Shown here piece by piece: positions 44 through 27,590 of a stretch of 29,797 nt of DNA. The stretch's first letter is position 1. Each line of letters opens with the position of its first letter. The notes under the pieces are model-generated. The model was not told where the DNA came from and searched no databases. It saw only the letters and a list, made by a program, of their open reading frames with translations. Origin of the DNA: Peribolospora baueri. Lineage: Eukaryota; Basidiomycota; Peribolosporomycetes; Peribolosporales; Peribolosporaceae. The translations under genes were made by a program, and so were the position numbers. The stretch covers positions 1 to 29,797 of the forward strand of contig JAMDHS010000142.1 in the NCBI GenBank assembly GCA_029717555.1, read 5' to 3'.

Positions 44-2611
44 GTCTCCGCACGCTTTGTCTCGCTTCGATGGAGATCGACGAACAGGACTACGACGAGT
101 GGGCGCACAGGTTCCACGATGCCAATGTGGCGCTCGAGGGCCGAGAGGAAAAGATGGAGAAGCTCGCCGACGAGCTCGAGCGCGGCTTCCGCCTGCTCGG
201 TGCGACGGCCATCGAGGACCGGCTGCAAGACGGCGTGCCGGAGACGATCGCCGACCTCAAGCGGGCGGGGATCAATATCTGGGTGGCCACGGGCGACAAG
301 TTGGAGACGGCGATCGCCATCGGCTACTCCACCAACCTGCTCTCCAAGGACATGAACCTCATCATCGTCCGAGGCGGCGAGTACGGACAGCGCAACTCGG
401 CCTACGACCAGCTCCGGGCGGCCATCGAGCACTTCTTCGATGCCGACGCCATCCTCGGCTCCCTCGAGCATCACCCGCCGGACATGGAGCGACCGCCGAG
501 TCGGCGGAGCTCGACCTGGCGCCGTTCGACGCAGATGCAACGTCGTGCGAGCGGCATGGGCGAGTCGATCGTCGGAGCCAACAACGGCCAGCGACCGGGC
601 GGGTACGCGCTGGTGATCGACGGCGCGGCGCTGACGCACGCGTTGGAGGAAGAGTTCACCAAGGAGCTCCTCCTCGAGATCTCGACCAAGTGCGAGGCGG
701 TGATCTGCTGCCGCGTGTCGCCGCTGCAGAAGGCGCTCATCGTCAAGCTCATCAAGGACGGCCTGAACGTGATGACGCTCGCCATCGGAGACGGCGCCAA
801 CGACGTGTCCATGATCCAAGCCGCCCACGTCGGCGTCGGCATCGCCGGTGAAGAGGGCCTCCAGGCCGTCAACGCCTCCGACTACGCTATCGCCCAGTTC
901 CGCTTCCTCAAGCGATTGCTCCTCGTTCATGGACACTGGTCGTACTACCGCAACGGCAACATGATCGTCAACTTTTTCTACAAGGAGATGATCAACACTG
1001 GGTATTTGGTATGTCGTCCTCGTCGTCGTCCTCATCCTCCTCGTCATAAAACGGCCTCGTTTCGCAAACCCGTGGCGCTCTGACACCGTACCGTACTCTG
1101 CTCGCTGCGGTTCATCGCTCCCTATTCCTTCTTCCCCTTCCGCAGTGGTGGTTCCAGCTCTATTGCACCTTGTCCACCACCCAATTTACCGACTACGTCT
1201 ACCTCCTCTTCTGGAACGCGTTCTGGACCGTCGCTGCGGGTGCGTGGCCCCCTCCTCGCTTTGCTTGTCGCGTTCGCTTCGGATATGCCCGCTCACCTCG
1301 CTTGACCTGATTCTCCTCGTCTCCGTTAGTCATCGGCATCGGCATCTTCGATCGCAACGCGAGCGACCGTCTCTTGATGCAGGTGCCAGAACTCTACAAA
1401 CTGAGCAAGAAAGGCAGCTACTTCGGCCTCAAGCCGTTTCTCATCTACATGCTCGACGGTCTCTACCAAGCCACCATCTTGTACTTTTTCATCTCTTACG
1501 CCTACAACACCACCACGGCTCGAAAGGACGGACTGGACATTCAGCTCTACGAGTTCTCCACCGTAGTCGCCATCGTCAGCGTGTGGATCGCCAACTTTTT
1601 CAATGGCCTCAACACGCACGCTTGGACGTGGTGGATCGTCTTTGCCGTCTTTTTGGGACCCGTTCTCATTTCTTGCTTTGCTGTGAGTTCGGATCGGATA
1701 GCGAGGGTCAAGCGTCTTCTAGGATGCGAGCAGCGCTGAACGTCGTCTTTCCTCTCTTTTCTTTTTTTTTTTTCCTGCAGCCCATCTACGCTGCCTTCAA
1801 GCCTAGCACTTTCTTTACCTACTCCTACGGGAATAATTATTATTTGTACCGGTCCGGTGAGTCCCCTCGTCTCCCCTCGTCGATCGCGCGCGGGGCCGGA
1901 CCGGCTAACCCGTCTCACCTTTGTTCCTCTCCCCCTCAGCATACTTTTACTTTTCTTTCCCCATCGCCATCGTCCTCAGTCTCTTGCCGAGGTACATTTG
2001 CAAGTTCCTGCGCTTACAGGTGAGCGATGGATGTGGTCCGTACGGCGGTGCAAAAGACGACCATTTGTATTCATTCCATCCCGTCACCATCTCCCCGTCT
2101 CCCCTAGTTCTTTGCCTCCGACCTCGATATTCTTTCGTGGGTGGAGAAGGAAGACCCGAACCATGATTACATCAACGATCCGGCCATGCCGACACTGCGC
2201 GCGGTCAAGGCCTACTACGGACAGCGGCCGATGGCGGCCAACGCCGATGGCGGAGACGCGTCGCTCGAGCCCGTCGGGAGCGGCGAGCCGTTGCGCCAGC
2301 ACCGTTCACCGTCCATACCGATGCACCCGCTTCACCAGGTGCGTTCCAACGCGAGCGCGAGAAGCAGCGTCCACGACATGAGCACGGGGCGCACGAGCGT
2401 ACATCGCGGTTACAGCTTCTCGCAAGAGGACGACGCGTTCGGTCGGTCCTCGAGACGCCACGACGGCGGCGGCACACAACGCAAGAAGCGTACGTTCAAG
2501 CTACCGGGATCGCTGAGGAGGGGGTTATTCCGCAAGAAGAGCCCGCTGGAGGTCCAGTCGGAAATGGCGGAGGACGAGGAGGAGGGGCGAGGAGAGGAGG
2601 AGAGAGGCTGA
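44..2611 (+). CDS. P4-type ATPase, phospholipid flippase (Dnf-like), C-terminal part
   Basis: P4-ATPases flip aminophospholipids or phosphatidylcholine to the cytosolic leaflet of plasma, Golgi or endosomal membranes. Visible exons are 44-1008, 1146-1239, 1330-1682, 1781-1856, 1940-2019 and 2108-2611. All junctions are GT-AG and keep frame, giving 689 residues; the N-terminus, including the DKTGT phosphorylation site, lies outside the window. Diagnostic motifs are GLRTL at the first exon start, GATAIEDRLQDGVPE, TGDK (289-300) and GDGANDV (787-807) of the P-domain hinge, followed by QFRFLKRLLLVHGHWSY leading into the membrane half. Later exons carry hydrophobic helices and the family segments GIFDRN, VPELYK and LDGLYQ. 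The tail after about 2210 is Ser/Arg-rich and acidic at its end, probably cytosolic and regulatory. An Arg/Ser-rich insert (about 478-580) interrupts the cytosolic domain. Resemblance is to Dnf1/Dnf2/Dnf3 rather than Drs2, but the subclass is not certain. The gene converges on the Gag-GH5 gene. Confidence 0.93.
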
Positions 2612-3008
2612 CGGGACACGTTAGTCGGGGCCTTTCCCGCTTTTCCGACGCCGGACCCCTTTCTTTCTTTCTTTCTTTCTTTCTCGTCTCTTTTCATGTG
2701 CGTGGCGTGGCCAGGACGCTCGGGCGCCGAATAGAATGCCTGTCCTGCCGTTTTTTCACGATACTCGAAGGCATGATGGATGACAAACGGAGGATGAATC
2801 GAGAGAGCATGAGAGAATTTAGACTTGCTGACGGCTCTCTGTCGGCTCTACGAGTGAGGACGAGGGGGGGGCCGAGCGAGCCGAGCCCTTGAGGGGGCGA
2901 TGTCATGGCATACATACGCCCCACGTGTATTCCTCATATTCAACTTACCACTCGCTTCCACGACATTGGTAGTAGCTTTGTAAGAGCACAGATATCGCCA
3001 GCTCGGTT
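2612..3008. other. Convergent intergenic region
   Basis: This 397-bp stretch separates the 3' ends of the P4-ATPase and Gag-GH5 genes. Apart from the CTTT microsatellite I see no gene, structural RNA or long repeat. No sequence like the candidate promoter region upstream of the Gag-GH5 gene (5451-5640) is found here, so a second terminal repeat on this side is not supported. Confidence 0.7.
2659..2682. repeat. (CTTT)6 microsatellite
   Basis: Six exact CTTT units lie about 50 bp after the P4-ATPase stop codon, presumably in its 3' untranslated region. Confidence 0.9.
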
Positions 3009-5450
3009 TCACTTGCCCATGCTCGCTGCGTACCCTTGCTCGAAGCCGTGTTCAAATTCCCACCACCGGCTTCTGTCCGGAAACTCCTGCACCCGCTCCT
3101 CACATCTCCGCCTTGTCCACTCCTTCTTGAAGCCTAGCTCGGACGCTTTGGAGGCGAAGAGGACGGCGTCGGTCCAGCCTGTTGAGAAACCTGCTTCAAA
3201 GAGGTTTGGAACCGAGCCACCCCTGCTGGACCAGTAGGCGCGATGGCCCGCAGCTTTCTCCTCTAACAGCTTTTGCTTCTCTTCCTCCTCCTTTCCTCCG
3301 CGCCGGGGCCGGGACGGACCGTGGAAGCTGGAAGGAAGGATGCCGTGCTCCACCGCGTCTCTAAAGCTCCAGCCCTCTCTAAAGCAGCCCTCCTCTAATC
3401 CCTTCTCCTTCTTGTACGTCCAGAAGAACCACCCGCTCGCCGTCTCCTCGAACACCTCCAGTTGCGCCCTTGCCCAAGCCCTGCGTAGTGCGTTGTCGCT
3501 CCCCCAACCCTTCTGCTGCAGGCTACCCGGGTGCAGTGCGGCGCTCCACCCGCCGATGATAAGGTTGCCGTGTGAAGCTCGCATAGCGTGGGACAACATA
3601 TCTCGTCCGCGAGTCTTGACGAAATTTACGAGTTCCCAACCCGAATTGGCTTGATCCTTCGGCGTGAAGTACCGATAGAAGTGGTGGTCCACCACCGTCC
3701 ACCCCCACGCGCCTTTCCCCCTTCCCAAGCGATCCCCGTCCCAATGTCCGACCAACCTCGCATACCTCTCAAGGTCGTCCCAGGCATCGCTCACCACCAG
3801 CATGAAATCCGGCCCCACGCCGCCTTCCCTCCGAAGCTGTGCGATGGCCTCTTCGTAGAAGCCTTGGAGTCGATGGTTTTTCTCTGGCTCGTTGAGAAGC
3901 TCGATGCCAATCACGTTGGGGAATCGGTCAAGAGGAAAGGACAGGGCTAGGACTCGTAAGGCGCGCAGAGTGGTAGACCGATTCGAGGGCCGCCAAACAT
4001 TGACCTTGCCCGACGAGACGCCCGAGTGCGCGTCTCTGTTCTGCGCGCCAGGGGCGCATTGGAGGTCGAGGAGAACGCCAATGCCGAACTCCTCCGCTTT
4101 CCGGACCGCCTGTAGGATCCTTTCCAACGCCCCCTTGTACACGTCCTCGAAACCAGCAAAATCGGTGTTCTTGAGCAAGTCCATATCCGCTCCAACGAGG
4201 TGGAAGTAGCCGATAGGCAAACGAACGCAGTTGACCCCAACACTTTGCAGCCATTTCCAATCGTCTTCGCTCATGTACGTGTCCCAGTGGCGTTCCAGAA
4301 CGTCCTTGGGCCAACTTTGACCAGGCGGGACGGCATTTGGGAACGGCGTGTCGTCAATCCATCGCTCGAGGCAAAACCAGCCTCCGAGGTTCACGCCTCT
4401 TTGCTTTCGATACCTCCAGACGTCCTTTTGCCCCAGCGAACTCCCAGCCGCATTCCCTGTGTCCCTGCCGCCACTGCCCTCCGCTACCGAAGGCGGCGGC
4501 GGGATGGGTGCCACGTCAAGCTTGGTCTCTAGCCTGTCTAGCATTTCGGTGAAGGCTTTGAATGCTTTCTTCATGAGCGATAAGATGAACACTTGGTTAC
4601 CGAGATCGTTCCCGGATTCGCTACGATGAATGGATGGCTGGAGCTCGGTGGGGAGGGCGTCCCACGCGGCTTCGACAATTTTGTCGCCATCGTAGGTTCC
4701 GGCGTCGTGGAGAAGGCGAATCTTCCGCTCGTGGAACTGGTCGGTGAAGCGACGTCGAAGAGCGACCTTCCAACCGTCTGCAGACAAATGCAGCCATAGT
4801 TTCTCCTCGATAGGTAGGTTGGCGTACCAGGTGATCGCTGTACTGCCCTTGAGACGCTGGGAGATGTACGGTGCGATCACATTTCCGCCGTAGAGTGCCG
4901 CGAGCTCATCGATCTTGTCGATGAATACGGTGGCAGACGGGGAGTTGGGAGCGTCTGGGTTAAACTCGAACAGCATGTCGGGTTTGAAACTGTTATACGA
5001 CGACGCAGTAGCACCGAAAGAGCGAAGTTCGGCTCCAGGAGAGCGAGACTGGTGCTCTTCGGCTGGAGGATGCACAGGGCTACCGAAGTGGTCCATACGA
5101 GGACGGTCAGCTGAACGGTGACGCACAAAGGTCTCTTGAGGTTGAGTGTGAGCATGCTGAGTCACTAACAGCTGGATCATCTCTACCAGCAGCGTTATCT
5201 GTGTCTGCATAGCTCGAGTGGTTTCATTCGAGGCTGCCACTTGATCGAGGCAAGCTCGGGTGGCTTCATTTGAGGCTGCCAGTTGGTCGAGGCAAGCTCG
5301 GGTGGTTTCATTCGAGGCTGCCAGTTGATCGAGGAGCCTATCAAAGCGGTCCGTTTCAGGGCTAGTATTATTGACACGCTCGTCCTCGGTCGAGCGATTG
5401 TTGTTGTTATCATGGGTGGAGCTGGATACTCCGGACGGAGTCAACTGCAT
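3009..5450 (-). CDS. Gag-like / GH5 exo-beta-1,3-glucanase-type chimeric protein
   Basis: One uninterrupted frame of 813 residues. Residues 1-35 are polar, and 40-81 hold three copies of a 14-residue unit (LDQLAASNETTRAC type). Residues about 150-312 resemble Ty3/gypsy Gag capsid, with the pattern FIDKIDELAALYG, LKGSTAITWYANLP and W-K-VALRRRF. A Pro/Gly/Ser linker follows. From about 342 the protein is a GH5 domain: RGVNLGGWFCLERW (351 on), ERHWDTYMSEDDW, NCVRLPIGYFHL, APGAQNRDAHSG, IELLNEP with acid/base Glu521, VDHHFYRYFTP and GWFFWTYKKEKG. These match the yeast YBR056W-type intracellular GH5 branch, and no signal peptide is present. Family members have Glu in the GEWSAAL-like strand; here the strand reads IIGGWSAALHPGS with Gly634. 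The DLH motif reads DLQ (Gln464). The start at 5450 gives the full Gag-like part and lies about 90 nt after a TATA box. It may be a pseudoenzyme. Domain calls are strong; the function of the fusion is unknown. Confidence 0.88.
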   Translation of the reverse strand: MQLTPSGVSSSTHDNNNNRSTEDERVNNTSPETDRFDRLLDQLAASNETTRACLDQLAASNEATRACLDQVAASNETTRAMQTQITLLVEMIQLLVTQHAHTQPQETFVRHRSADRPRMDHFGSPVHPPAEEHQSRSPGAELRSFGATASSYNSFKPDMLFEFNPDAPNSPSATVFIDKIDELAALYGGNVIAPYISQRLKGSTAITWYANLPIEEKLWLHLSADGWKVALRRRFTDQFHERKIRLLHDAGTYDGDKIVEAAWDALPTELQPSIHRSESGNDLGNQVFILSLMKKAFKAFTEMLDRLETKLDVAPIPPPPSVAEGSGGRDTGNAAGSSLGQKDVWRYRKQRGVNLGGWFCLERWIDDTPFPNAVPPGQSWPKDVLERHWDTYMSEDDWKWLQSVGVNCVRLPIGYFHLVGADMDLLKNTDFAGFEDVYKGALERILQAVRKAEEFGIGVLLDLQCAPGAQNRDAHSGVSSGKVNVWRPSNRSTTLRALRVLALSFPLDRFPNVIGIELLNEPEKNHRLQGFYEEAIAQLRREGGVGPDFMLVVSDAWDDLERYARLVGHWDGDRLGRGKGAWGWTVVDHHFYRYFTPKDQANSGWELVNFVKTRGRDMLSHAMRASHGNLIIGGWSAALHPGSLQQKGWGSDNALRRAWARAQLEVFEETASGWFFWTYKKEKGLEEGCFREGWSFRDAVEHGILPSSFHGPSRPRRGGKEEEEKQKLLEEKAAGHRAYWSSRGGSVPNLFEAGFSTGWTDAVLFASKASELGFKKEWTRRRCEERVQEFPDRSRWWEFEHGFEQGYAASMGK
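4515..5003 (-). mobile_element. Gag capsid-like segment of Ty3/gypsy type, fossil within a host gene
   Basis: The segment encodes about residues 150-312 of the chimeric protein and has the hydrophobic and aromatic spacing of LTR-retrotransposon Gag. No protease, reverse transcriptase or integrase is found anywhere in the window, so this is a captured fragment and not an element. Age cannot be judged from a single copy; the open frame suggests either recent capture or selection. The assignment comes from pattern recognition, not a profile search. Confidence 0.65.
5208..5333 (-). repeat. Three tandem 42-bp coding repeats
   Basis: Three 42-bp units encode residues 40-81 of the chimeric protein as LDQ(L/V)AASNE(T/A)TRA followed by C, C and M. 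The units differ at only a few bases, pointing to fairly recent duplication. The repeated segment is predicted helical and, with the following ITLLVEMIQLLVTQ, could form an oligomerising coiled coil. Confidence 0.85.
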
Positions 5451-5640
5451 CGCGAAAACAGAGAAAGAGCTGGATCGATTGGTTTGGTAAGAGTAAGGTC
5501 AAGGTGATCCTCTAGGGATGATCTGAGTCCCCGTTCTTATATACATGGAATAAGGGTCAGGGGGTGAGTAACAATGGGGAGGAGTAATGTAAAATAAGTG
5601 AATCACGTGCGCCTGCGTACGCGGGTGTAAATACACGTGG
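5451..5640 (-). promoter_or_regulatory. Candidate promoter of the Gag-GH5 gene: TATA box and twin CACGTG boxes
   Basis: On the minus strand TATATAA lies at 5543-5537, about 90 nt before the start codon. Two perfect CACGTG palindromes lie at 5604-5609 and 5634-5639, 30 bp apart, upstream of the TATA box. CACGTG is the site of bHLH factors of the Cbf1/Pho4/SREBP class. The compact arrangement resembles an LTR U3-R segment, but I cannot see LTR ends. Confidence 0.5.
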
Positions 5641-6091
5641 AGCGTATGTCGTGTGGATGGAGCGGTACAAAAGCCAGCAAGCAGGCGTTGCTCTCTCGCC
5701 CGCTCCCGGTCCCGCTCTGGGTGGGTCGCACTTTCATCGGCAAAAATTTTTACGCTGTCGCACCTCGCTCGCATGGGCAAAGCGTAATCGAAAATACAAA
5801 GCCCGATGGAGGAGCCTTGAGGAGGCGAAGGAAGAATGACCGTTTATGATTGGTCAGCGAGCCCCCGGGGTCAGCAAGCGCGGGATCACAACACCGACAG
5901 GAGCGGAAAGGGCCGATCCGAGGGCGGCCATGTTAGGTGTATAGTGCTCGAATAGTGTACATGCATGCTTCCCAGAGCTGTGTGAAAGGATGGCGAGGTC
6001 GAGAGATGCAAACGGTCCGAGGAGTCGCGTGGCGAGTTCCAGCAGGTTGGGGACCGGGCGACTTGAACGTACGGCCCTGGTTTCTCCGCGT
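5641..6091. other. Intergenic region between RPC31 and the Gag-GH5 gene
   Basis: The stretch holds the RPC31 3' flank and distal upstream sequence of the Gag-GH5 gene. A minus-strand CCAAT motif is at about 5849-5853. I see no gene or structural RNA. Confidence 0.5.
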
Positions 6092-7308
6092 TCAATCGTA
6101 TGTACCGCCGTCTTGAGGACGTAGTCGTTGGGGACGATAAAGAAAGGACGGCACAAACAGGGAAGAAACGACGGACGTGTCGGAGCGAACGAATCGGTCA
6201 GCTCGCCACACGAAAAGTCTTTCACTCGCTCCTGAACACCCACCTTCGTCTCCGCCGCCGCCGCCGAAATCGTCCGGCTCGTCTCCCTCCCCGTTGTCGA
6301 AATAGTTCTGATCATAGTCGTCCTCCCCCTCGTCCTCATCGTAATCCGGTTCCGCCTCTTCTTCTCCTAGATCTTCGCCCAGAGTACCGTCGATGTCCTG
6401 AAGAACGTGGGAATAGGAGAAAAGAGCCACGATAAACGACGCTAGGGTGAGCTTGAGAGGAGGGAAGTGTCGAGGAGCGAGGTGTCGATTACGAGACGCA
6501 CCTCTCTCGCCTCCCCGCGTTCGAGCGCATCCCAGTCCAGCTTTCGTTTCTCCGCCTTTCTCTTTGCGGCTGTGAAAAGGGGTACGAGGGGAAGAAAAAA
6601 GCGACGAGTGTCAGATGGAAACCTCTCGGTGACACTTAACACTGGAGCATCCGTCCTCCACTCACCAGCCGCCTTGACCTCCTCGCCGTGAATGAAGCTT
6701 TTCCACACGTCCGGTGGGAAGAAATCAGGGTTCATCTTGACATCCTTCAGACTTGGGCGGTCCGCTTTGGCAGGTTTGAAGCGGTCGCTATACCGAGGAA
6801 GGTCTAGGAAGAAGCAAACGAGGACATTTGGAAGATTGTCAGTCGGCCGATGGAAGCATGAGGACTAGACGTGCTGCGCGAACTGGCGCACCTTTCAGCT
6901 TCTTCTCCTCCTCCTTCAGAAAAAAGGCCGAGACACGCATCTTGCGCACGTAGTCCGACTGCAGGTTCGCCGCCTGCAACTCGCCGTCATCCGCCGTTTC
7001 GAGCTGAGGGTTTACGGTGAGCTCCTGAGCCGCCGTGTAGGAAAAGGACACACACGTAAGCGACCGATCCCTATCCACACTACGTTACCTGTAACAAAGA
7101 CAATACTATACGCGCCAAGCTGCCTGTGGCGAGACGATAGACAGATACCAGCAAGGCGACATGCACTCACGGGGAATAGCTCAGTAGGCTTCTTGTTGAG
7201 CTCCTGGATCTCTTGAAAGGTGAATCCGGCCGGAGGAAGTTGGCGCCCACCACCTCCTCCGGGACCTCCTCCTCTGCCTCCAAAGCCACCTCTGCCTCCT
7301 CGAGACAT
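6092..7308 (-). CDS. RPC31: DNA-directed RNA polymerase III subunit RPC31 / RPC7
   Basis: This is the Pol III-specific subunit of the C82-C34-C31 initiation subcomplex, acting in the nucleus in tRNA, 5S and U6 transcription. Minus-strand exons are 7308-7171, 7024-6892, 6803-6666, 6569-6502, 6397-6244 and 6111-6092, giving 216 residues (S. cerevisiae Rpc31 has 251). The N-terminus is an RGG/GGG-rich stretch typical of the family. Then come LPRYSDRFKPAK, the FFPPDVW segment, a basic KRKAEKRKLDWDALERGE stretch and a strongly acidic tail (DEDEGEDDYD, then YFDNGEGDEPDD). The last intron (6243-6112, 132 nt, acceptor AAG) is inferred. If it is retained the frame stays open and adds a non-acidic 44-residue segment, which reads like translated intron. 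Spliced, the protein ends DEDGGTYD, which suits the acidic C-terminus of the family. The upstream neighbour on the same strand is KRE33. Confidence 0.9.
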
Positions 7309-8214: not shown

Positions 8215-11200
8215 TCAATCCCTCCTCGCCTTCTTGTCCGCCTTCGTCTCCCCCTCTCCTCCCTTGCGCTTTCCAGAAGCCTTCTCCGCGGGCGCAGGTG
8301 AGCCGTTCTGGGAAGGGGCCGCCGTGGGCACAGTGGAGGCGATCGCCACCTTCTGCACGTCCTGGACGCTCTTCGTAAGCCGGCGAATGGCTTTGACGAA
8401 CAAGGCCAGCGCTTGCGAGACTGGAAGTTTGAGCTCGGCCTGGGTGGTATGGAGGGGCGCGATGGACGAGAGGCGTAGGAAACGTGTGAGATGGACGAGC
8501 GCGGCAGACCAGCACCTCGGATGCGGGCGGAAAAAAAAAGCAGACCACTCACCTCCACGTCCTCGATGCTCTTCCTCTGCAGCCCCAAAGCGAGCAGAAT
8601 GCTGCTCTGCACTCCGCTCAGCCGGAGATCGTCACCGAAGCGCTGTGAAAAGTAGAGCGAGGCGAGCGAGGGGAGGAGGTCGAGGATGACGTGGTAGTCG
8701 AGCATGTTGTTGGCATACGACTCCAAGCGCTTGATGTCGAACGGGGTCACGAGGGTAGAGAGCTCAGACGAGTCGAGAGCTGCGACGGGGAGAGAGAGGG
8801 GTGCGCGAATGGTGAAGGAGAGCGGCGGTCTCTGCTAAGCACGCTTTGGGATCGGATCGGGAACAAGATAAGCACGAGCACTCACGTTTGACTTCCCCCT
8901 CGCCTTGACCCGCGCTCGCGGCCTCCATGATGCTCAAGGCGGTTACGGAGGCGAACTCGCGGAAGCGATAGGAAAGGAGGGAGATGAACCTTCGTCGAAA
9001 ATCTGTCCAAAAAAAAAAAGGGGAAATTTAGGCATTCAGCGCTTCGATTTACGAACGAACGGACTTGGGACAGACGAGAGCGGCCGAGCCCAACGCACCG
9101 AGAGCAAAGCTGGACAGCCATCCCTCCGCTTGAGCAACGTCGCTGTCGAGCGCCCGTAGCATCACGCACGAGTACTCGCCCGTGAGGTCGTTGGGCGTCT
9201 GTCGGAGGTAGAGCGGCACGAACCCGGCACGCTTCCAAAACTTGAGAAGCTGGGCGGTGAGACCATAACTGACGCCGATGTAGTCGAGCTTGTCCGGCTT
9301 CTTCTCCGACAGGCGCTCCAGCAGAGGTGGCATGGTCGCCGCGTCGCGCACGCCGAGCGTCTCGGTGTGAATGTCAGCATCTTCGGACACTTTGGCGGCC
9401 TTGGCGAAAGATACGCTTTTGTCCTCCTTCTCCGCCACCTCGTCGAGGTTGAGGAACTGACCGGAGTAGAACGAGTAGAGGGCCTGGAGGGCTCTGGAGC
9501 CGTAACCCATGCTGGCGTAATCGGGGTGCACGGCGATGCGCACGATACGCGCTCCCGAGAGCATGGCAAAATCATCGTCTTGGAACTGCTGCGACACGAG
9601 CCAGGGGATCATGTCTCCGCTGGAGCGAGCGCCGCGATTGAGAGAGGCGAGGATGGCCTGCCGGGAGATGTTGCCTTCGAGTGCAACCTGAATGAGCATG
9701 GGGAAGGGGGGAAGGGGGGAGGAGACAAAGTCAGGAACGCTGCGCCCCACCGTCGACCAAGATATGGACGAACGCGTGTCGGTCGCTCGACCGACTCACC
9801 TGCAGCACCACCAGAGGATCGGGCAACGTATTCTCATCGTCCTTGAGCGGGGGCAAGAGCACGAAGAGCTGGTGGGCGGGTGCGTCGCTCATGAGCTGGA
9901 GGTCGTTGGGACTGTTCTTGTAATGGCTCGCCACGTAAAGCGCCATCATGCGCTGGAGGAACACCTCGCTGGCCGGGTGATAGCTGAATAGCGCGTCCCG
10001 GTTCACCGCGTACAGCTCGCATTGGTTCGGGTGCGGACAGCCGGTGAGGGCGCGCGGGAGGACAGAGGCGTCGAGGCAGAGGAGTTGGTGAAGCCACTTC
10101 TCCACCGTATCCCCCGCAGTGTACCGGATCGGCTCGGTCAAGTTGATCTCTCGCAGCGTCCTCGCCGAGATGGCTGGCCCGCCCGAGCCGGGGCCGGATG
10201 CGCCCGTCTTTTTGCTCGTGCCTGCCGCATTCTCGTCGTCTCTCTTCGTTGAGCTCGCGAGGGATGGCCTCGTGGACTCACGTAGTTGTTGGATGAGCTT
10301 GAGAGAAAGGGAGCGTCCGGTGCCTTCGTAACCATTGATAGTCGAGGATAAGAAGACGAGGTAGGGACCCATAAGGTTTCGAACGAGCGGCAATGGGATG
10401 GCGGCCGCCTCGTCGATGACTACCAGCTCGGCCTGTCCGAGCACGTGTGCGTCTTGTGGTTGGATATACTATCGGTAGAGAAGAGATGCGAGAGCGTCGG
10501 CTCAGACAAAAGACATCCAATGCAGCCACGACCAGGGGGGGAGGTGTGGAACTCACCTGAATGGTCTGTCTATGGCCCCTGAACACATTCACCCGCACGA
10601 TCGCCTTCTTAAACTCGGGGTTCGTGCTCTGGACGATATCGTAATCCAAATGCTCCTCATAACCGATTCCGTCGAAGCCCTTGAAAATGAACTGGAAAAG
10701 CGTCGTGAGGTTCTCTGGGCTCGGCGAGGTGACAAAGATGTTGCTGTAGCCGTGCGCGACGGCGGCCGCGATCGCCAGGCCGAGCGCGGCGGACTTGCCG
10801 CGTCCTCGGGAGGCGGTGAGGGTGACGGTAGAGGAGAGCGTTTTGGAAGAGATGGCGTCGACGAAGGTGAGGATCGCCTTGGCCTGTATTGCGGAGCGGG
10901 GCGAAAGTTCATGAGCGTCGGTACGCCCTCCGAGGAAATCGAAAGCGTCAGCGGCGGAAAAGCGGAAGAGAAGGCTCACCTGGTCAAGCGTTTTGGCGTA
11001 CTTGATGATCTCTCCCACGGGTTTCGCATCCCTCATCTCGTCTTTCAACTCGTCCAACTGTTCCTCACTCTTTGCCTTTCCCTTGACCCCTCGCCCCTCT
11101 GGGCCATCCGGGAGCGGTCGGATGTCCTTTCCTTTGGAGAGAGGAAGAACGTTGAGCTCGTCGTCGAGGACGAGACAGTCGGGACAGGAGCCGAGGGAAA

Positions 11201-16315: not shown

Positions 16316-19300
16316 ATGCCTCACAAGAACAGAGGCCTCATGGAGGACGACATCTCCGACTCGGACATCTCGTCCGAGAACGACGACTTGGCCCCTGAGG
16401 ACGCCGCGGACGCCGACGAGCGCGAGGCCGCGGAGCTCTTCAACGACCCCTACCGCCGGGCGCGACGGAAGCGCAAGAGGGGGCCGAGCGGCAAGGAGGA
16501 CGCCATGTTGGGCATCTTTGGGGATGGAAGCGATGAGGAGAGGGAGGGCGGGATGGGCAGGACGGTGAAAGGGACGGATAGGAAGGGGAAGAAGATTGAC
16601 TACAAGAGGTGAGCCGCCCCCGGCAAGCGAGCGAGCGAGCTTCTCGCTCCGCTTCCGGATCATCCGTTTGCCACACATGAGTTCAGTTCGCTCTGATTCG
16701 ATCGCTGACAGTTTTGCCTCATTGAACCTCTTTTCGAATTCGTCTGCTTTGTTCGTCCGCCACAGAGGTCAAGCGTTCGTGCCTGCAGGCGAGGCCACCT
16801 CCTCTCGGCAAACGCCGGCGCCGGCGCAGGGCGAGGAAAAGCAGGCGGACGAAGCAGAAGCTTCGGGTTCGGATGACAGCGCCGCGCGGGACCGACAGGA
16901 CTATGAGGAAGATGCTTCTGCCAGGCCTGGTATTGGAACAAGTAAGAGCGGCCTCGGAGCGACGAGAAAACCGCCACAGCAGCGGGACTCCCCATCGGTG
17001 TCCTCCACGCCGACGTCTTTTGGTTCTCCCCGACCTTCGTTCACGCGCGGAGGGTTTGCGGGAATTCGAGGTCTCGGCGCAGGTGGATTTGGAGGCGGCG
17101 GCGGCGGGGGAGGGACCAGGGGGACCAGCAATCCGGGAGTGGGGGGTTCTTTTGCGGCCAAGGCGATGGCCAAGATGGGTTGGAAGGAGGTATGTACGAC
17201 ATCCGCCATGGCCGATCCGTCCATCCATTTCTGTTTTTTCGGCTCTGACGTTGCGTATTCGGTCTTCTCGAATCGTTTTTTTCAGGGTCAAGGTCTCGGT
17301 GCGTCCGGCGAAGGTATCCTAACGCCCATCGAAGTCAAGATCCGCCAAGCTGGCACCGGTCTGGCGTTCGGAGGGCAGAGGGAGAAGACGAAACAAGCGG
17401 TTGAAGAGGCTCGTAGGCGGGGAGAGCACGTTTCTGAGGACGAAGAAGAGGAGAACCTCGTTCCTGGAAGGAAGGGAAAGAGAGGGAAGGAGAAGAAGGA
17501 GCTCAGGCCCGAGGCGACGTATCGGTCCGCAAAGCCGAGAAAGGAGAAGGTTGTACACAAGACGTACGAGCAGATCGTCGAAGAGGCCGGCGGGGTAGTG
17601 GGCGTCGATGCCGGTGTAGGCCAGATCATCGACGCTACGGGCGCTACCGTGAGTTTTCACATCGTCGCTCTTTTCTTCGTCAAAGAGATGTGGAGAGGCC
17701 TTCGACCCCGTACTTACTTGTTTCTCACCTCTTTCCATTTGCAGCCTCGAGAGGTGGCCTCTCTCTCCCAACTTTCCTTAACAGTTGGAATTCCCACTTC
17801 CGACTCCCAACGCCTGCCCGAGCTCCGACACAACCTCCGCCTGATTGCCGACCTATCCAAGTCGTCATTGACGACGCTTGCAAAGGAAGCGTCAAGCATG
17901 CACGAGAAACGCCGGTATCTCGTCCGGGAGGAGCTGCGCGTGAAGCAGGTGCTTCAACAACAGGCGAGAAGGATGACGCGGCTGAAAGAGGTGGTGGATG
18001 TGGTTGGCGAGATCGAAAAGACGGCCAAGTTGGCCATGGCCCGCTCGCCGCCGAGTCTGCAAGTCTTCTCGGATCTCTTTCACCGCCTTGAGGTGGATTT
18101 CAGCCCGGAGATAGACGAACACCATCTGGACGAGGTGACCGTCGGCGCAGTGGCACCTATCTTCCGCAGACTCCTCGCCGATTGGGATCCTCTCTCAGAG
18201 CCGAGCTGGTTTGTGGACTGGTTCAAAAGGCACAAGCGTGCCCTCGGGTTCAGGAGAGATGCTGGGGCAGACGAGAGAACTTTGGATGTTTATGGACAAG
18301 AGATGCAGCCGGTGTCGCGAATGGAGACCAAGTGAGTTCAGTCGCTCTCTAGTCGGCGGCGCTCTTCTCCATCATGTCGGCGATGGCGCTGACCTACTGC
18401 GACCTTCTTTTGATGATCAGGTCCGTCATGTCTCCATACGACTCACTGCTCTGGAGCCTCTGGTTGCCCAGAGTGCGTTCGGCACTCAACAACGACTGGA
18501 CGCCGAAAAACGCTGCGCCGGCCGTGTCCCTGCTGTCCGTTTGGACATCTCTCCTGCCTCGGTTCATCTACGACAACATCCTCGACCAGCTCGTCCTTCC
18601 CAAGGTGGCTTCGGCGGTCGCCGAATGGACGCCTCGGTCGGCGGCATCGAAAGGGAAGGTGAAGGGCGAGCTCGGGGTGCAGTTGCACGAGCTCGTCTTC
18701 CCTTGGCTGCCGTACGTGGGAGAGAGGATGGAGGAGGTGATGGCAGAATCGAGGAGGAAGGTCAGGGGCTGGCTCAAGGGTTGGAGGGTCGAGGAGGGCG
18801 TGCCCAAGGGCTTTGCCATTTGGCAGGAGGTGAGCGGTCGCTCGGTTCGTCAAATTCTTTTTTTTTTCGTGTGGCCGACCTTTTCCTTCTTTGCCCCGTC
18901 TTGTCCCCCAGGCTTTCGCTCCCCAGGACTGGTCCAACATCGTCCTCGGCACAGTTCTCCCACGTGTATCCTCCTACCTCCGCTCCAATCTCACCATCAA
19001 CCCAGCTCAGCAGGACCTCTCTCCGCTCGAAGCGCTGGTTTCTTGGCGGGGTGTCGTGCGGGACAGGGAGATGGCCAAGGTGCTCGAGTTGGAGTTCTTC
19101 CCGAAGTGGCTTGACGTGCTCTGGCAGTGGTTGCGGATGGAAGGGGTCAGCGGTGGTGAAGTCGCGCAGTGGTGAGTCTGGCGAACAGATTCCACCTCGC
19201 TCGTCTGTCATCTTTCGATCGTGGCTCGTACGTTCGCCTGCTCATGTCGCCGCGCTCTTTCCGCTTCTTGATATCTCGCATAGGTACTCGTTTTGGAAGT

Positions 19301-20616: not shown

Positions 20617-23600
20617 TCAGATGAACCAAAGAGCAGAGCGGATGACTCGGGCGATGGCGTCCAAGCCCTTCGAGGCGATGTAGTAAGGCGAGAGGAGGAG
20701 GAGAACAGGCCAGGGGTGTTGCTCGATTGCGTGGACGTCCCCTGGTGCGTGAACGTTGCCTAGTGCGTGAACGTCCCCTGGAGCGTATGCGGCCGGCGTC
20801 GCCGGCGCGAGAGGACCGTCGTCGTCGGCACTGATGACGTCTCCCCCGTGCTGCCCGTGTCTCGCGAGTGGCAGCGACACGCTGGGAGCTGCCTCTCGAG
20901 CAGGCTCAGACGAGGCTGCTGTCACCACCGCATCCGCTGGCGTATCCTCACAGTCGTCGACACTCGCACCGGGTAGGTCCCTCATCCACTCCGATCTCAC
21001 CGCTCCGTCTTTTGGGAACAGAGCCGAAAGGTTGTCCATCCTGCCGTCGATATCGTTGATGCGAGCGAGGAGGGTGAAGAGGACGTAGAGACAGACGACC
21101 CAGAGCAGGTACGAGCGGAAGACGCGGAGCACGTTGAGTCTGGATGCTCGTGATGAGTTGGCAGTCGTATGTCGCAAAGGGATGATAAGTGACGGCGCTG
21201 TGTAAGCGGGAAGGTGAAACCTGGCCATCGTCGCCGTCACCGTCGCAAAAGGACCTTTCGAGTGGTCCTGAAAGTTTGCAAAGTGGAAGCCCCGAGAGCG
21301 AGGTTCGGAAAGACGAAGGTTGTTCGGGCTATGGACGGTAACCTCATACCGAACGACAGGTAGTTGGAAAGCGGGCAGAGCACAGTCTTCCTCCCAGCGT
21401 CGGTCAGAAGCGCCAGGCGGCCTTCTCGTCAAGTATTGCAGCTCAAGGACAGGGACGGGATGTAGACCCGATTCTGCCGAGGCTGGGAGGTCGATCTCGA
21501 TCAAAGCGGCCAGACGCTTATCTGCCGCGACGACGCCCTCTGCCGTTTGAGATGGAGCAACGCCCCCGACGCGCCTCCAGCTCGCGCGGCGACCATTGAC
21601 ACTCGTCTCGAAGCCCGACAAAGACGGGTCTTCTGGCGACTCGTGAGAGCGCTGCACACTCACCAGCACTGTCCTTGGCAGCTCCGTGCCGCTGCCTGGA
21701 GCAGTCGGCCATGGCAGCCGTACCACCGCAACGGCAGAAGCGGAACCGCCATCGAGATCCTCGAGAGGGAGTGGCTCCTCAGGACAACAGAGATAGACGT
21801 CGACCGTGACCCACGGAAAGCTGGGATCTAGAGCTTCGAGGAAGGAGTCTGGTGGTGCTCTCTCTACGAGCGCCGGATCCTTTCGAGCCACGGATAAGGA
21901 GCTGAGCGGATCACCCGCTTGAGATGCAGTTCGAGGGGGAGCAGCTGCGGGGTTGATGACGCCTAGCATCACCGCTTCCTCACGAGCACCGGTCCTCGTC
22001 TCTTCCGCTGGGCTGCTCATGGGAGATGACGACGACAAATCAGGCCCGACGCTCCTGCGGAGTCTAATGACTTGATCATGGTCAGGCTCTCGTCCAAAGG
22101 AGCGCGTGCCATCCGGTAGACGGTCGACGATGGCCAGCCTTCGTCCCGACGAGGTGGGGCCCGTGAATATGGAGGTGAAGAGATCGTGTGCGGATGCAGA
22201 AGGGATGCGGAAGAAGGGCAGGGAGAAGACGGCTCTCGACAGGGAATTTGAATCGGAGGGACGCGGAGTGATGGAGAGCTTAGCGGAAAAGTTGACAACG
22301 AAGGGGGGACGGCGTTGCCGGCTTTGGCTGCTAAATCCGCCGACGACGTGGTTGACGTCGAGGACCAGACAGACGAGCTCAACCTCTGGGTCAGCGCCTT
22401 GTCCCACCGCGATCTTCTTCGTCCCACGCTTTTCGTCCTCAGCCTGTTCCTCAGCGAAATATTCCTCAACGATAGTCGACGCCGCGATCTGAGCGCCTCC
22501 TCCGACAGAGTAACGCCGCGCTTTGGTACGCCTGCCCGGCAAGGCGGACACCTCAAAGCTCATGTCCGGGTCCTGAAGGCCACTGGGCGGGGCGACCTGA
22601 AGGAGCGAAGGGCCCGAGACATTGTCGTTCCAGAGGGGCTTCGAAGTGCGGGAGACGTCCGCGGAGCCCTTTGGTCGCGCCCTGCCACCCGCTTGGAAAC
22701 GGTCCGAAGGAGAAGAGGAGGGGCCCATAGAAGCGGTGTTGTCGCCAAAGGAGGAAGTAGAGTGGGAGTCTGAAAGGCGAAAACTCGGCATAGAGTCGGA
22801 AGGGGTGAGGGGCTCGGGAGAGAAGCGCGATGAGGAAGTGGACGCGGGAGAGGTGGACGAAGGGCGTAAGACGTCGACAAGCCCAGGCACGCGCTCAAAG
22901 TGGAGGCTGAGGAGCTTGGCGCGATCACCGAAGGAGTCAAGCTGGAGCCTGTGGAGAGGCAAGGGACCGAGAAAACAAAGCGAGAGCAGTTGGTCGGTCG
23001 CTCGCCGGTGGCATCCACGCCGTCCCAGCGATTCTCTGTACTCACCATAGCTCGGACGTGCTCTCCAGCCCGTCGTACCAAGCGCCATACAGCGCAATCT
23101 GCCCTTCCACCTCCAACAGTACGTCGTTGCGTTTGTTTTCGTTTTCACCTTGGCCGTCGATCACACGCCTTCCTTGCGCCTTGGCCGGGGTGTCGTCCAC
23201 GAGGCCGTATTCTAGCCTGCTCTCCGCTTTATCCATACCCAGGGGGTCACCTCTCCCTCGATCCTCCTTCTCTTCTTCATGTCCTTCACCGCCTTTCCCT
23301 CCTTGGCTCCTCGAAGCGGCCCAACGGATGTGAAGACTCTCGGCGCTGGGGAAGATGCCTTCGATCACGTCTTTGTCCTCCTCGTCCTCCTCTTCCTCCA
23401 CGCGGTCCCGATCCAGCGTGCTCTCAGTTTCGGCGCTGCCCTCACTGCCAGCCGAGTCAACGGCGCTCCTACTCCCGCGATCCCGGTCGGCACCTTCCTT
23501 CCAACTGGATGGAGGATCCATACCTGCGCCGCGCGACCCACGGCGCCGATGAGCTTTTCTTGCCTTTTTCGGTCGGATGAGAGGGGGATCGGTCTGAACG

Positions 23601-25990: not shown

Positions 25991-27590
25991 ATGACCGTGT
26001 GGAGAACGCAGTCACCGAGCTCCACGAGCGCTCCCAAGGCTACCAACCTCGCCGCCGTTTTACATGGCGCCGGCGACCTTCGCACTGTCCGTCCCGTCCT
26101 TTCTATGCTCCTGCTTTTCGTTCTCGTCCGCCAGTTCTGACCGTTGGGCGCTTCTGCTTGTCTTCCCGTACTACATAGGAGGAGCGCCTCAATAACCCCC
26201 CTGGTCCTGGCGAAGTGCAGGTGCAGGTCAAGGCGACGGGTTTGTGTGGGAGCGACCGTGAGTGGCAGGCAGGGCTTGTGCGAAGTTACGTTGTCTTAAA
26301 ACCTCCCTCCGTCCTCTTGTCACCCTGTTTCCAAAAGTCCATTACTATATGCACGGCCGCAACGGAGACTTCGCTCTCCAACACCCGATGGTATTGGGGC
26401 ACGAAGCGGCGGGCACAGTCGTCGCCGTCGGCCCTCCTCTCTCCACCTGCTCAGGCGCCTCCACCACCACCACCACCACCACCACTTCCCTCAAGGTCGG
26501 CGATAGAGTCGCCTTTGAGGCCGGGTTGTACTGCCGCCAGTGCAGGTACTGCTCCGAGGGAAGGTACAATCTGTGTACTCAGATGCGCTTTGCCAGTTCG
26601 GCCAAGACGGCGCCCCATCTGGATGGCACGTTGAGGGAATTCGTCAACTGGCCGGCCGAAAACGTACACCTGTGAGAGGAGAATCGCCGAGAATGGGCCG
26701 TTTCTCTGTTTCTATCTGAACGGAACGTTCAAACCTCGTGTCCCTTCCTTTCTCTCCACGGCCTGGCTCAGCATGCCGGACGAGGTGAGCTACGAACAAG
26801 GGGCGCTCATCGAGCCCCTCTCCGTCATCCTCCACGGTATCAAGCGCAGCCGTCTCACCGCCGGCGAGTCCGTTCTCGTTTTTGGTGCCGGCGCCGTCGG
26901 CCTGCTCGCCTGTGCCGCCGCTCGCTCGTTCGGCGCTTCGGTCGTGGCGTGCGCTGATATCGATGCAGGGCGGCTGGAGTTTGCGAGGAAGGAGGTGGGG
27001 TGGGCGCAGGAGACGGTGTTGTTGCCACTACCGGCCAAGAGACAAGAGCAAGACGGAGCGGCGAAGAAGGACGGATGGGAGGAGAAGAAAGAGGGCATAG
27101 AGAGGAGCAAGGAGCTGGCGTCGCGCATGCTCCGCGACCTCGGCGTCCTCGCTGACGGAGGCTTCGACGTCACTTTTGAGTGCACCGGCGCGGAGAGCTG
27201 TGTGCAGATGGGCATCTTTGTGAGTGTGCTCAGTCGCGCCGAATGGGAGGATGGTCGTCATGGACTGAGTCGTTATTTATTTCTTTGACGCAGGCCACCC
27301 GACCGACGGGCCGAGTCGTCCTGGTGGGCATGGGCACGCCCATTCACGCTCTCCCCCTCGGCGCGGCGGCGCTGCGTGAAGTAGATCTAATCGGCGTATT
27401 CCGGTACGCCAACACGTACCCCTCCGCTCTGTCCATGCTCGCCAAGGGAGGGCTAGGAAAGATGGGCCTAGAGAGGATGATCAGCCAACGCGTACCGCTT
27501 GGCGATGCGGCCAAGGCGTTCTCGTACTTGCGCGACGGAAAGGGAGAGAAGGGGGAGAGGGTGGTCAAGGTGTTCGTGGGCGATTATTGA
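25991..27590 (+). CDS. Zinc-dependent NAD polyol dehydrogenase (sorbitol/xylitol dehydrogenase type)
   Basis: A medium-chain dehydrogenase/reductase that would oxidise sorbitol, xylitol or L-arabinitol to the ketose with NAD+ in the cytosol. Exons are 25991-26086, 26179-26257, 26338-26671, 26772-27219 and 27294-27590, giving 417 residues; typical members have about 350-390. Catalytic zinc ligands: Cys55 in CGSD, His80/Glu81 in GHEAAG, and the IEPLS glutamate. The structural zinc cysteines are 124, 127, 130 and 138. The Rossmann motif GAGAVGLLACAAARSFGA is followed by ADID, whose acidic residue favours NAD over NADP. LHYYMHGRNGDF and FRYANTYPSAL fit polyol dehydrogenases. Two additions explain the length: an eight-Thr run (101-108) between GHE and the structural zinc loop, and a charged Lys/Glu-rich insert near 27030-27110. 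The substrate cannot be fixed from sequence. The 5' splice site of exon 1 (GTCCGT) is weaker than the others. Confidence 0.92.
26461..26484 (+). repeat. (CCA)8 coding microsatellite
   Basis: Eight CCA units, read as ACC codons, give the poly-threonine run in the dehydrogenase. The run lies in a loop before the structural zinc site. Confidence 0.9.

Follow-up and report, generated by a model that had tools for sequence, protein, structure and literature searches.

A Gag-GH5 fusion in Peribolospora baueri: probable chimeric retrocopy made by an LTR retrotransposon

Layout of the Gag-GH5 Locus

The DNA analyzed here is a complete contig of the basidiomycete Peribolospora baueri (JAMDHS010000142.1; contig C47 of the 22.1 Mb own genome, G000, which comprises 178 contigs), and its full length of 29,797 bases is referred to as the window. 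On the reverse strand of the window, a single open reading frame (ORF) of 813 codons from ATG was identified by translation at positions 3009-5450. It fuses a segment resembling the Gag protein of Ty3/gypsy retrotransposons to a complete GH5 protein, and each of the remaining five frames across the same positions is broken by 16-30 stops. Such an in-frame fusion within one uninterrupted frame of 813 residues had been proposed in a first-pass annotation made from the sequence alone and is confirmed here. It was found once in the own genome.

All parts of the fusion lie on the reverse strand. The start of the frame, consisting of the ATG and the first codons (5385-5457), is related to a broken copy on contig C135 (65 of 78 positions identical to L012 1752-1829). 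Near the N-terminus, three direct repeats with a spacing of 42 bp (5211-5334; repeat family D3, 88% and 95% to the reference copy) code for a 14-residue repeat, which occurs threefold at residues ~39-80. The Gag capsid-like segment, which was delimited by own-genome matches, covers residues ~150-268 (4647-5003). It is followed by the junction (residues ~269-284; 4598-4646), by 23 nucleotides of parental 5′ untranslated region (5′-UTR), which are read in frame as residues ~285-292 (4575-4597), and by the intronless full GH5 coding sequence (residues 293-813; 3009-4574). Past the stop codon, 3′-UTR sequence of the parent is found at 2978-3008. The positions from the junction onward are based on alignment to the parental gene on contig C18 (locus L009).

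The parental protein begins at residue 293 of the fusion, and residues 293-341 are therefore the own N-terminus of the GH5 protein and not Gag. The Gag-like part had originally been placed at residues 150-312, which reaches into this N-terminus, and is corrected here to residues ~150-268. The description of the GH5 part as full length agrees with the complete parental coding sequence found at residues 293-813.

The GH5 Half Is a Retrocopy

Residues 394-681 are recognized by the GH5 family profile (PF00150; score 27.5 bits, threshold 23.5, E-value 2.7e-6), and exo-glucanases of the PDB are similar to the copy over most of the catalytic domain (best E 2.4e-25). In the own genome, one close GH5 relative was found on contig C18 (L009 4240-6645), along with more distant GH5-like matches of 31-46% identity on contigs C112 (two places), C166 and C33.

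The parental gene on C18 contains eight introns with lengths of 92-133 bases, all of which are bounded by GT...AG. In a base-by-base alignment, all eight are missing from the window copy, and they are gone at the splice sites. The similarity between copy and parent spans from 23 nucleotides upstream of the parental ATG to ~31 nucleotides downstream of the stop codon, so that the boundaries of the copy, as placed by similarity to the parental gene, lie in the UTRs of a transcript whose ends are presumed. Due to the loss of all eight introns and the boundaries outside of the coding sequence, the GH5 half is a spliced mRNA which was copied back into DNA. A poly(A) tract was not seen after position 2978, unlike in retrocopies made by long interspersed nuclear elements (LINEs). 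The locus had been described as a glycoside hydrolase with a Gag capsid at its N-terminus; rather than an enzyme to which such a module was added in the ordinary sense, it is a retrocopy of a spliced mRNA, attached to a long terminal repeat (LTR) and a truncated Gag.

The N-Terminal Half Is Gag-Like

The protein search of the fusion against the own genome gave 16 matches in all, including GH5 and the window itself. Six of these, at five places, concern residues ~133-268 and are located on C110 (two), C4 (two pieces), C135 and, as a weaker match, C132. The C132 match (E 4e-4, 32% identity over 100 residues) carries the assignment, since this Gag-like sequence lies on the same strand upstream of a stretch resembling a protease (Asp_protease_2 below the cut-off, E 0.0029), a reverse transcriptase (RVT_1, E 1e-15) and an RNase H (E 7.6e-17). 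Judged by this relative, the N-terminal segment at residues ~150-268 is Ty3/gypsy Gag-like.

The assignment of the segment through Pfam and PDB sequence searches was dropped in favor of homology to own-genome elements. No Pfam Gag family matched the N-terminal part of the fusion at E-values up to 1, phmmer against the PDB gave nothing for the first 290 residues at E-values up to 10, and tblastn of the N-terminal part against plasmids gave no match. The Gag of C132 itself matches no Pfam family, and among the scanned Gag relatives only one C110 piece reaches Retrotrans_gag, weakly and below the cut-off (E 0.0053). The profile search envisaged in the first-pass annotation thus bore out the GH5 domain, with the PF00150 match, but not a Pfam Gag family, and the Gag likeness is seen only through the own-genome elements.

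The Gag of the fusion is truncated. Compared with the related C110 piece, the middle of its capsid-like segment lacks 23 residues, no C-x2-C-x4-H-x4-C (CCHC knuckle) motif exists in the 813 residues, and residues 1-292 hold 2 cysteines. It is therefore an incomplete capsid without a knuckle. For the Gag piece (window 4581-5033), AlphaFold without an alignment gave an unusable model, with a mean predicted local distance difference test (pLDDT) value of 34.6.

LTR Sequences on Both Sides

Directly before the fusion ATG, an LTR-family repeat with a TATA-like box was identified by own-genome repeat matches (5455-5647, reverse strand). For the window region 5440-5680, there are 17 other own-genome matches to this LTR family, and seven copies were aligned. 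The stretch with TATATAAG (5523-5547, reverse strand), the presumed promoter, is exactly conserved in four of these seven other copies, and the LTR end CCACGACA is present in five of them. The rest of the 5′ LTR, i.e., its end, as well as the primer-binding site (PBS) and the leader were not seen before the fusion ATG.

On the other side of the fusion, repeat alignment revealed an internally deleted LTR remnant of the same family on the forward strand (2901-2965), which consists of the first ~40 and the last ~15 nucleotides. The PBS-like sequence TGGTAGTAGC follows directly after the LTR end (2967-2976, forward strand) and was recognized by this position. Two places in the genome, one in the window and one on contig C171, combine the LTR end (CACGACA) with TGGTAGNAG; a reversed-pattern control gave none. 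In other elements, a tRNA serves as the primer at the PBS. No tRNA genes were found in the window and eight loci, so the PBS-like sequence stands without a tRNA match.

No intact autonomous element carrying this LTR turned up in the own genome: downstream of the copy of LTR and PBS on C171 there are three open frames of at least 200 residues, and no match to the Gag of the window. Opposite orientations of LTR-family pieces were also observed elsewhere, as two such pieces adjoin within ~115 bases on contig C129 (117423-117537; L036/L038). On C4, a stretch of 346 bases (L011 2693-3036) matches its own reverse complement at 93% and forms a near-palindrome beside Gag and LTR remnants.

Catalytic Residues and Divergence of the Copy

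The glutamates of the LNEP and GEWS motifs are taken here to be the catalytic acid/base and the catalytic nucleophile of GH5, respectively. The former is kept in the copy (IELLNEP), in common with the exo-beta-1,3-glucanases of the family (1EQP/1CZ1, 1H4P), whereas the nucleophile Glu and a conserved His of these enzymes are replaced. At the nucleophile position, both the parent and 1EQP read GEWSAAL and the copy reads GGWSAAL (E to G), and the DLHGAPG of the parent and 1EQP has become DLQCAPG (H to Q). Both changes fall in the copy and not in the parent. In the PDB, the copy is matched best by 3N9K and 4M80, which likewise lack the nucleophile, with S at this position, and are presumably catalytically dead mutants. 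In addition, eight residues of the SDLDVARGP region of the parent are deleted in the copy; this region is ungapped in the paralogous piece on C112. The score against 1EQP is 114.3 bits for the parent and 90.7 bits for the copy.

The alignment of copy and parent covers 512 codons, in which 116 of 1536 bases and 70 amino acids are different (86.3% identity). The pairwise rates of nonsynonymous (dN) and synonymous (dS) substitution are 0.066 and 0.126, with a dN/dS of 0.53 (bootstrap 0.37-0.77), a value also expected when a copy evolves neutrally while its parent is under constraint. When 44 differing aligned positions were polarised with 1EQP, 8 favored the parent, 6 the copy, and 30 were uninformative (P 0.79), which gives no indication that the copy as a whole is decaying faster.

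Since the GH5 nucleophile is lost (GGWS instead of GEWS), a function of the fusion as a cell-wall enzyme is unlikely from its sequence, and the cell-wall-related role that had been suggested for the GH5 part is improbable. With the nucleophile, the active-site His and the eight-residue stretch lost, the likeliest state of the copy is that of a retropseudogene without catalytic activity or of a short-lived chimeric gene, presumably without function.

Proposed Origin

The best explanation of the fusion, with a probability of about 0.8, is a chimeric retrocopy generated by a Ty3/gypsy-type LTR retrotransposon. According to the established model, host mRNA is packaged accidentally by an LTR element, whose reverse transcriptase switches templates at short similarities (PMC5408686, in excerpt). 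Applied to this locus, spliced mRNA of the GH5 gene on C18 would have been packaged or copied by the reverse transcriptase of the element. The synthesis would then have jumped between the GH5 mRNA, near its presumed 5′ end, and the retrotransposon RNA inside gag. The resulting complementary DNA (cDNA) would have landed between a P4-ATPase gene and the neighboring gene, where the Gag frame, the short 5′-UTR and the GH5 frame, being in phase by chance, form one long ORF behind a putative LTR promoter.

The inverted end consisting of LTR and PBS may be explained by plus-strand strong-stop DNA which acted as a primer on the end of the GH5 message. Ty3 particles accumulate dead-end plus-strand strong-stop products (PMC5371799, in excerpt). 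In the element considered here, such products may carry LTR and PBS and could have served as the primer at this locus.

Alternative Explanations

Two observations at the ends of the insertion weigh against the proposed origin. On the 3′ side, the LTR remnant runs opposite to the 5′ LTR and the fusion, an arrangement not given by a standard LTR insertion, and a target-site duplication was not found, as the 4-6 bases before position 2901 do not recur in 5640-5700. The opposite orientation of remnant and PBS, as if two origins meet here, would suit a GH5 cDNA with an LTR-PBS end that was inserted into an older LTR-gag fragment at the site, so that the fusion arose at the DNA level; the lack of the LTR end, PBS and leader on the 5′ side points in the same direction. 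However, no remaining element sequence was seen beyond the insertion: tblastn of five gag/pol pieces from C110 and C132 found none in window 2400-3008 and 5450-6300 at E-values up to 1, and DNA searches of the flanks gave the match to the LTR end only. In addition, only a short distance separates the junction from the presumed 5′ end of the mRNA. Such separate insertions are considered unlikely, and they share the retrocopy step with the chimeric retrocopy proposed above, so that the odds of the two overlap. That an artefact of the assembly fused two loci might be suspected since the window is a whole short contig, but this is highly implausible. The junctions lie well inside of the contig, and with 116 of 1536 aligned coding bases differing and the introns absent, the copy cannot be a mis-joined piece of C18.

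The present state of the copy is a separate question from its origin, and the odds for the two do not sum to one. Several statistics speak against a plain dead pseudogene. The open frame across both parts had been taken as a sign of expression or recent origin, and it is indeed somewhat better preserved than expected under neutrality: the GH5 part contains 0 stops against 4.3 expected at d = 0.063 (P 0.014), and the whole frame 0 against 6.1 (P 0.002); if all changes are put on the copy, 5.0 stops are expected in the GH5 part (P 0.0075). The 70 amino-acid changes compare with 81 (73-90) under random placement, and all five coding indels are multiples of three, the sole indel past the stop being a single base. 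A domesticated chimeric gene, in which the Gag-GH5 protein with its repeat-bearing, capsid-like N-terminus is selected as a non-catalytic scaffold or carbohydrate-binding pseudoenzyme, could account for these values, for the dN/dS and for the TATA-like LTR upstream of the 813 open codons. Against this stand the neutral reading of the dN/dS, the losses at the nucleophile and the conserved His with the lower score against 1EQP, and the incomplete capsid. The stop test is moreover weaker at d = 0.04 (0 against 2.7 expected, P 0.066), and the statistics on stops, changes and indels are weakened because the frame was picked for being long. Domestication is consequently rather improbable, and an expressed and selected gene driven by the LTR, whose capsid-like N-terminus would assemble or localise a beta-glucan-binding, non-catalytic pseudoenzyme, is to be given still less credence. 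It is similarly doubtful that the parental ATG (M293, position 4574), which is kept together with the 23 nucleotides before it, is the start used, in which case the Gag part would be transcribed only as a leader and a GH5 pseudoenzyme lacking it would be produced; the in-frame ATG upstream, right behind the LTR, would normally be used first.

Comparison with Known Chimeric Retrocopies

Chimeric retrocopies from LTR elements are known in plants and animals (PMC5408686, in excerpt), and the fusion described here is a further case of this kind. As in the LTR-mediated retrocopies treated there with reference to Tan and coworkers, an intronless copy of a host mRNA is joined to sequence of an LTR element, with LTR sequence at the sides. 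In contrast to these, the window has a 3′ LTR remnant that is deleted and in opposite orientation, a target-site duplication was not found around the insertion, and the join is in frame with gag. In fungi, chimeric retrogenes of Magnaporthe are transcript fusions which were ascribed to template switching by LINE machinery; one has flanking direct repeats of 14 bp, and, unlike here, no in-frame protein fusion is described in the abstract (PMC2104539).

The maize element Bs1 is also an LTR element with transduced pieces of host genes. These stem from a plasma-membrane ATPase, a xylan endohydrolase and a beta-1,3-glucanase, and the resulting chimeric gene is transcribed and translated (PMC13317346, in excerpt). 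It carries partial segments of three genes, whereas the fusion contains one complete GH5 coding sequence. In view of its glucanase and xylan endohydrolase segments, the statement in the first-pass annotation that no precedent had been described was too strong. A Gag-GH5 fusion was not found among the matches listed for titles and abstract openings of open-licence papers.

The likeliest view of the fusion in this yeast-like fungal genome is that retrotransposon activity left it behind as a side product, and not that a new type of enzyme arose. The fusion represents a well-preserved case of a full host coding sequence which an LTR retrotransposon copied and placed, in frame, after its presumed promoter and Gag, and each step is traceable since the parent, the LTR family and the Gag relatives are all present in one genome. 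If the inverted end of LTR and PBS were found in other copies, it would bear on the priming of such chimeras, and should the protein turn out to be produced, the locus would illustrate how an accident of a retrotransposon can lead to a pseudoenzyme that bears a capsid domain. A maintained gene would be the fungal equivalent of maize Bs1, with a host protein in full, but the catalytic losses suggest an ordinary retropseudogene as the more likely state. The ORF of Bs1 reportedly also holds gag sequence.

Neighboring Genes and Further Observations

Further genes of the window were assigned by Pfam. A phospholipid-translocating P-type ATPase is encoded at 70-1083 and a GCFC protein with a G-patch at 16596-18335, both on the forward strand, as is a zinc-binding dehydrogenase at 26773-27288. 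The reverse strand carries a GNAT_acetyltr_2 gene at 9049-9750, which we take to be of the Kre33/NAT10 type, and an open frame of 843 codons at 20617-23148 without a Pfam match at an E-value of 0.01.

Finally, two reverse-transcriptase places with equal score were observed 2.7 kb apart on contig C68 (6197-9646; L057, L058). Their open frames, with 854 and 842 codons, are the longest among the 31 reverse-transcriptase matches listed.

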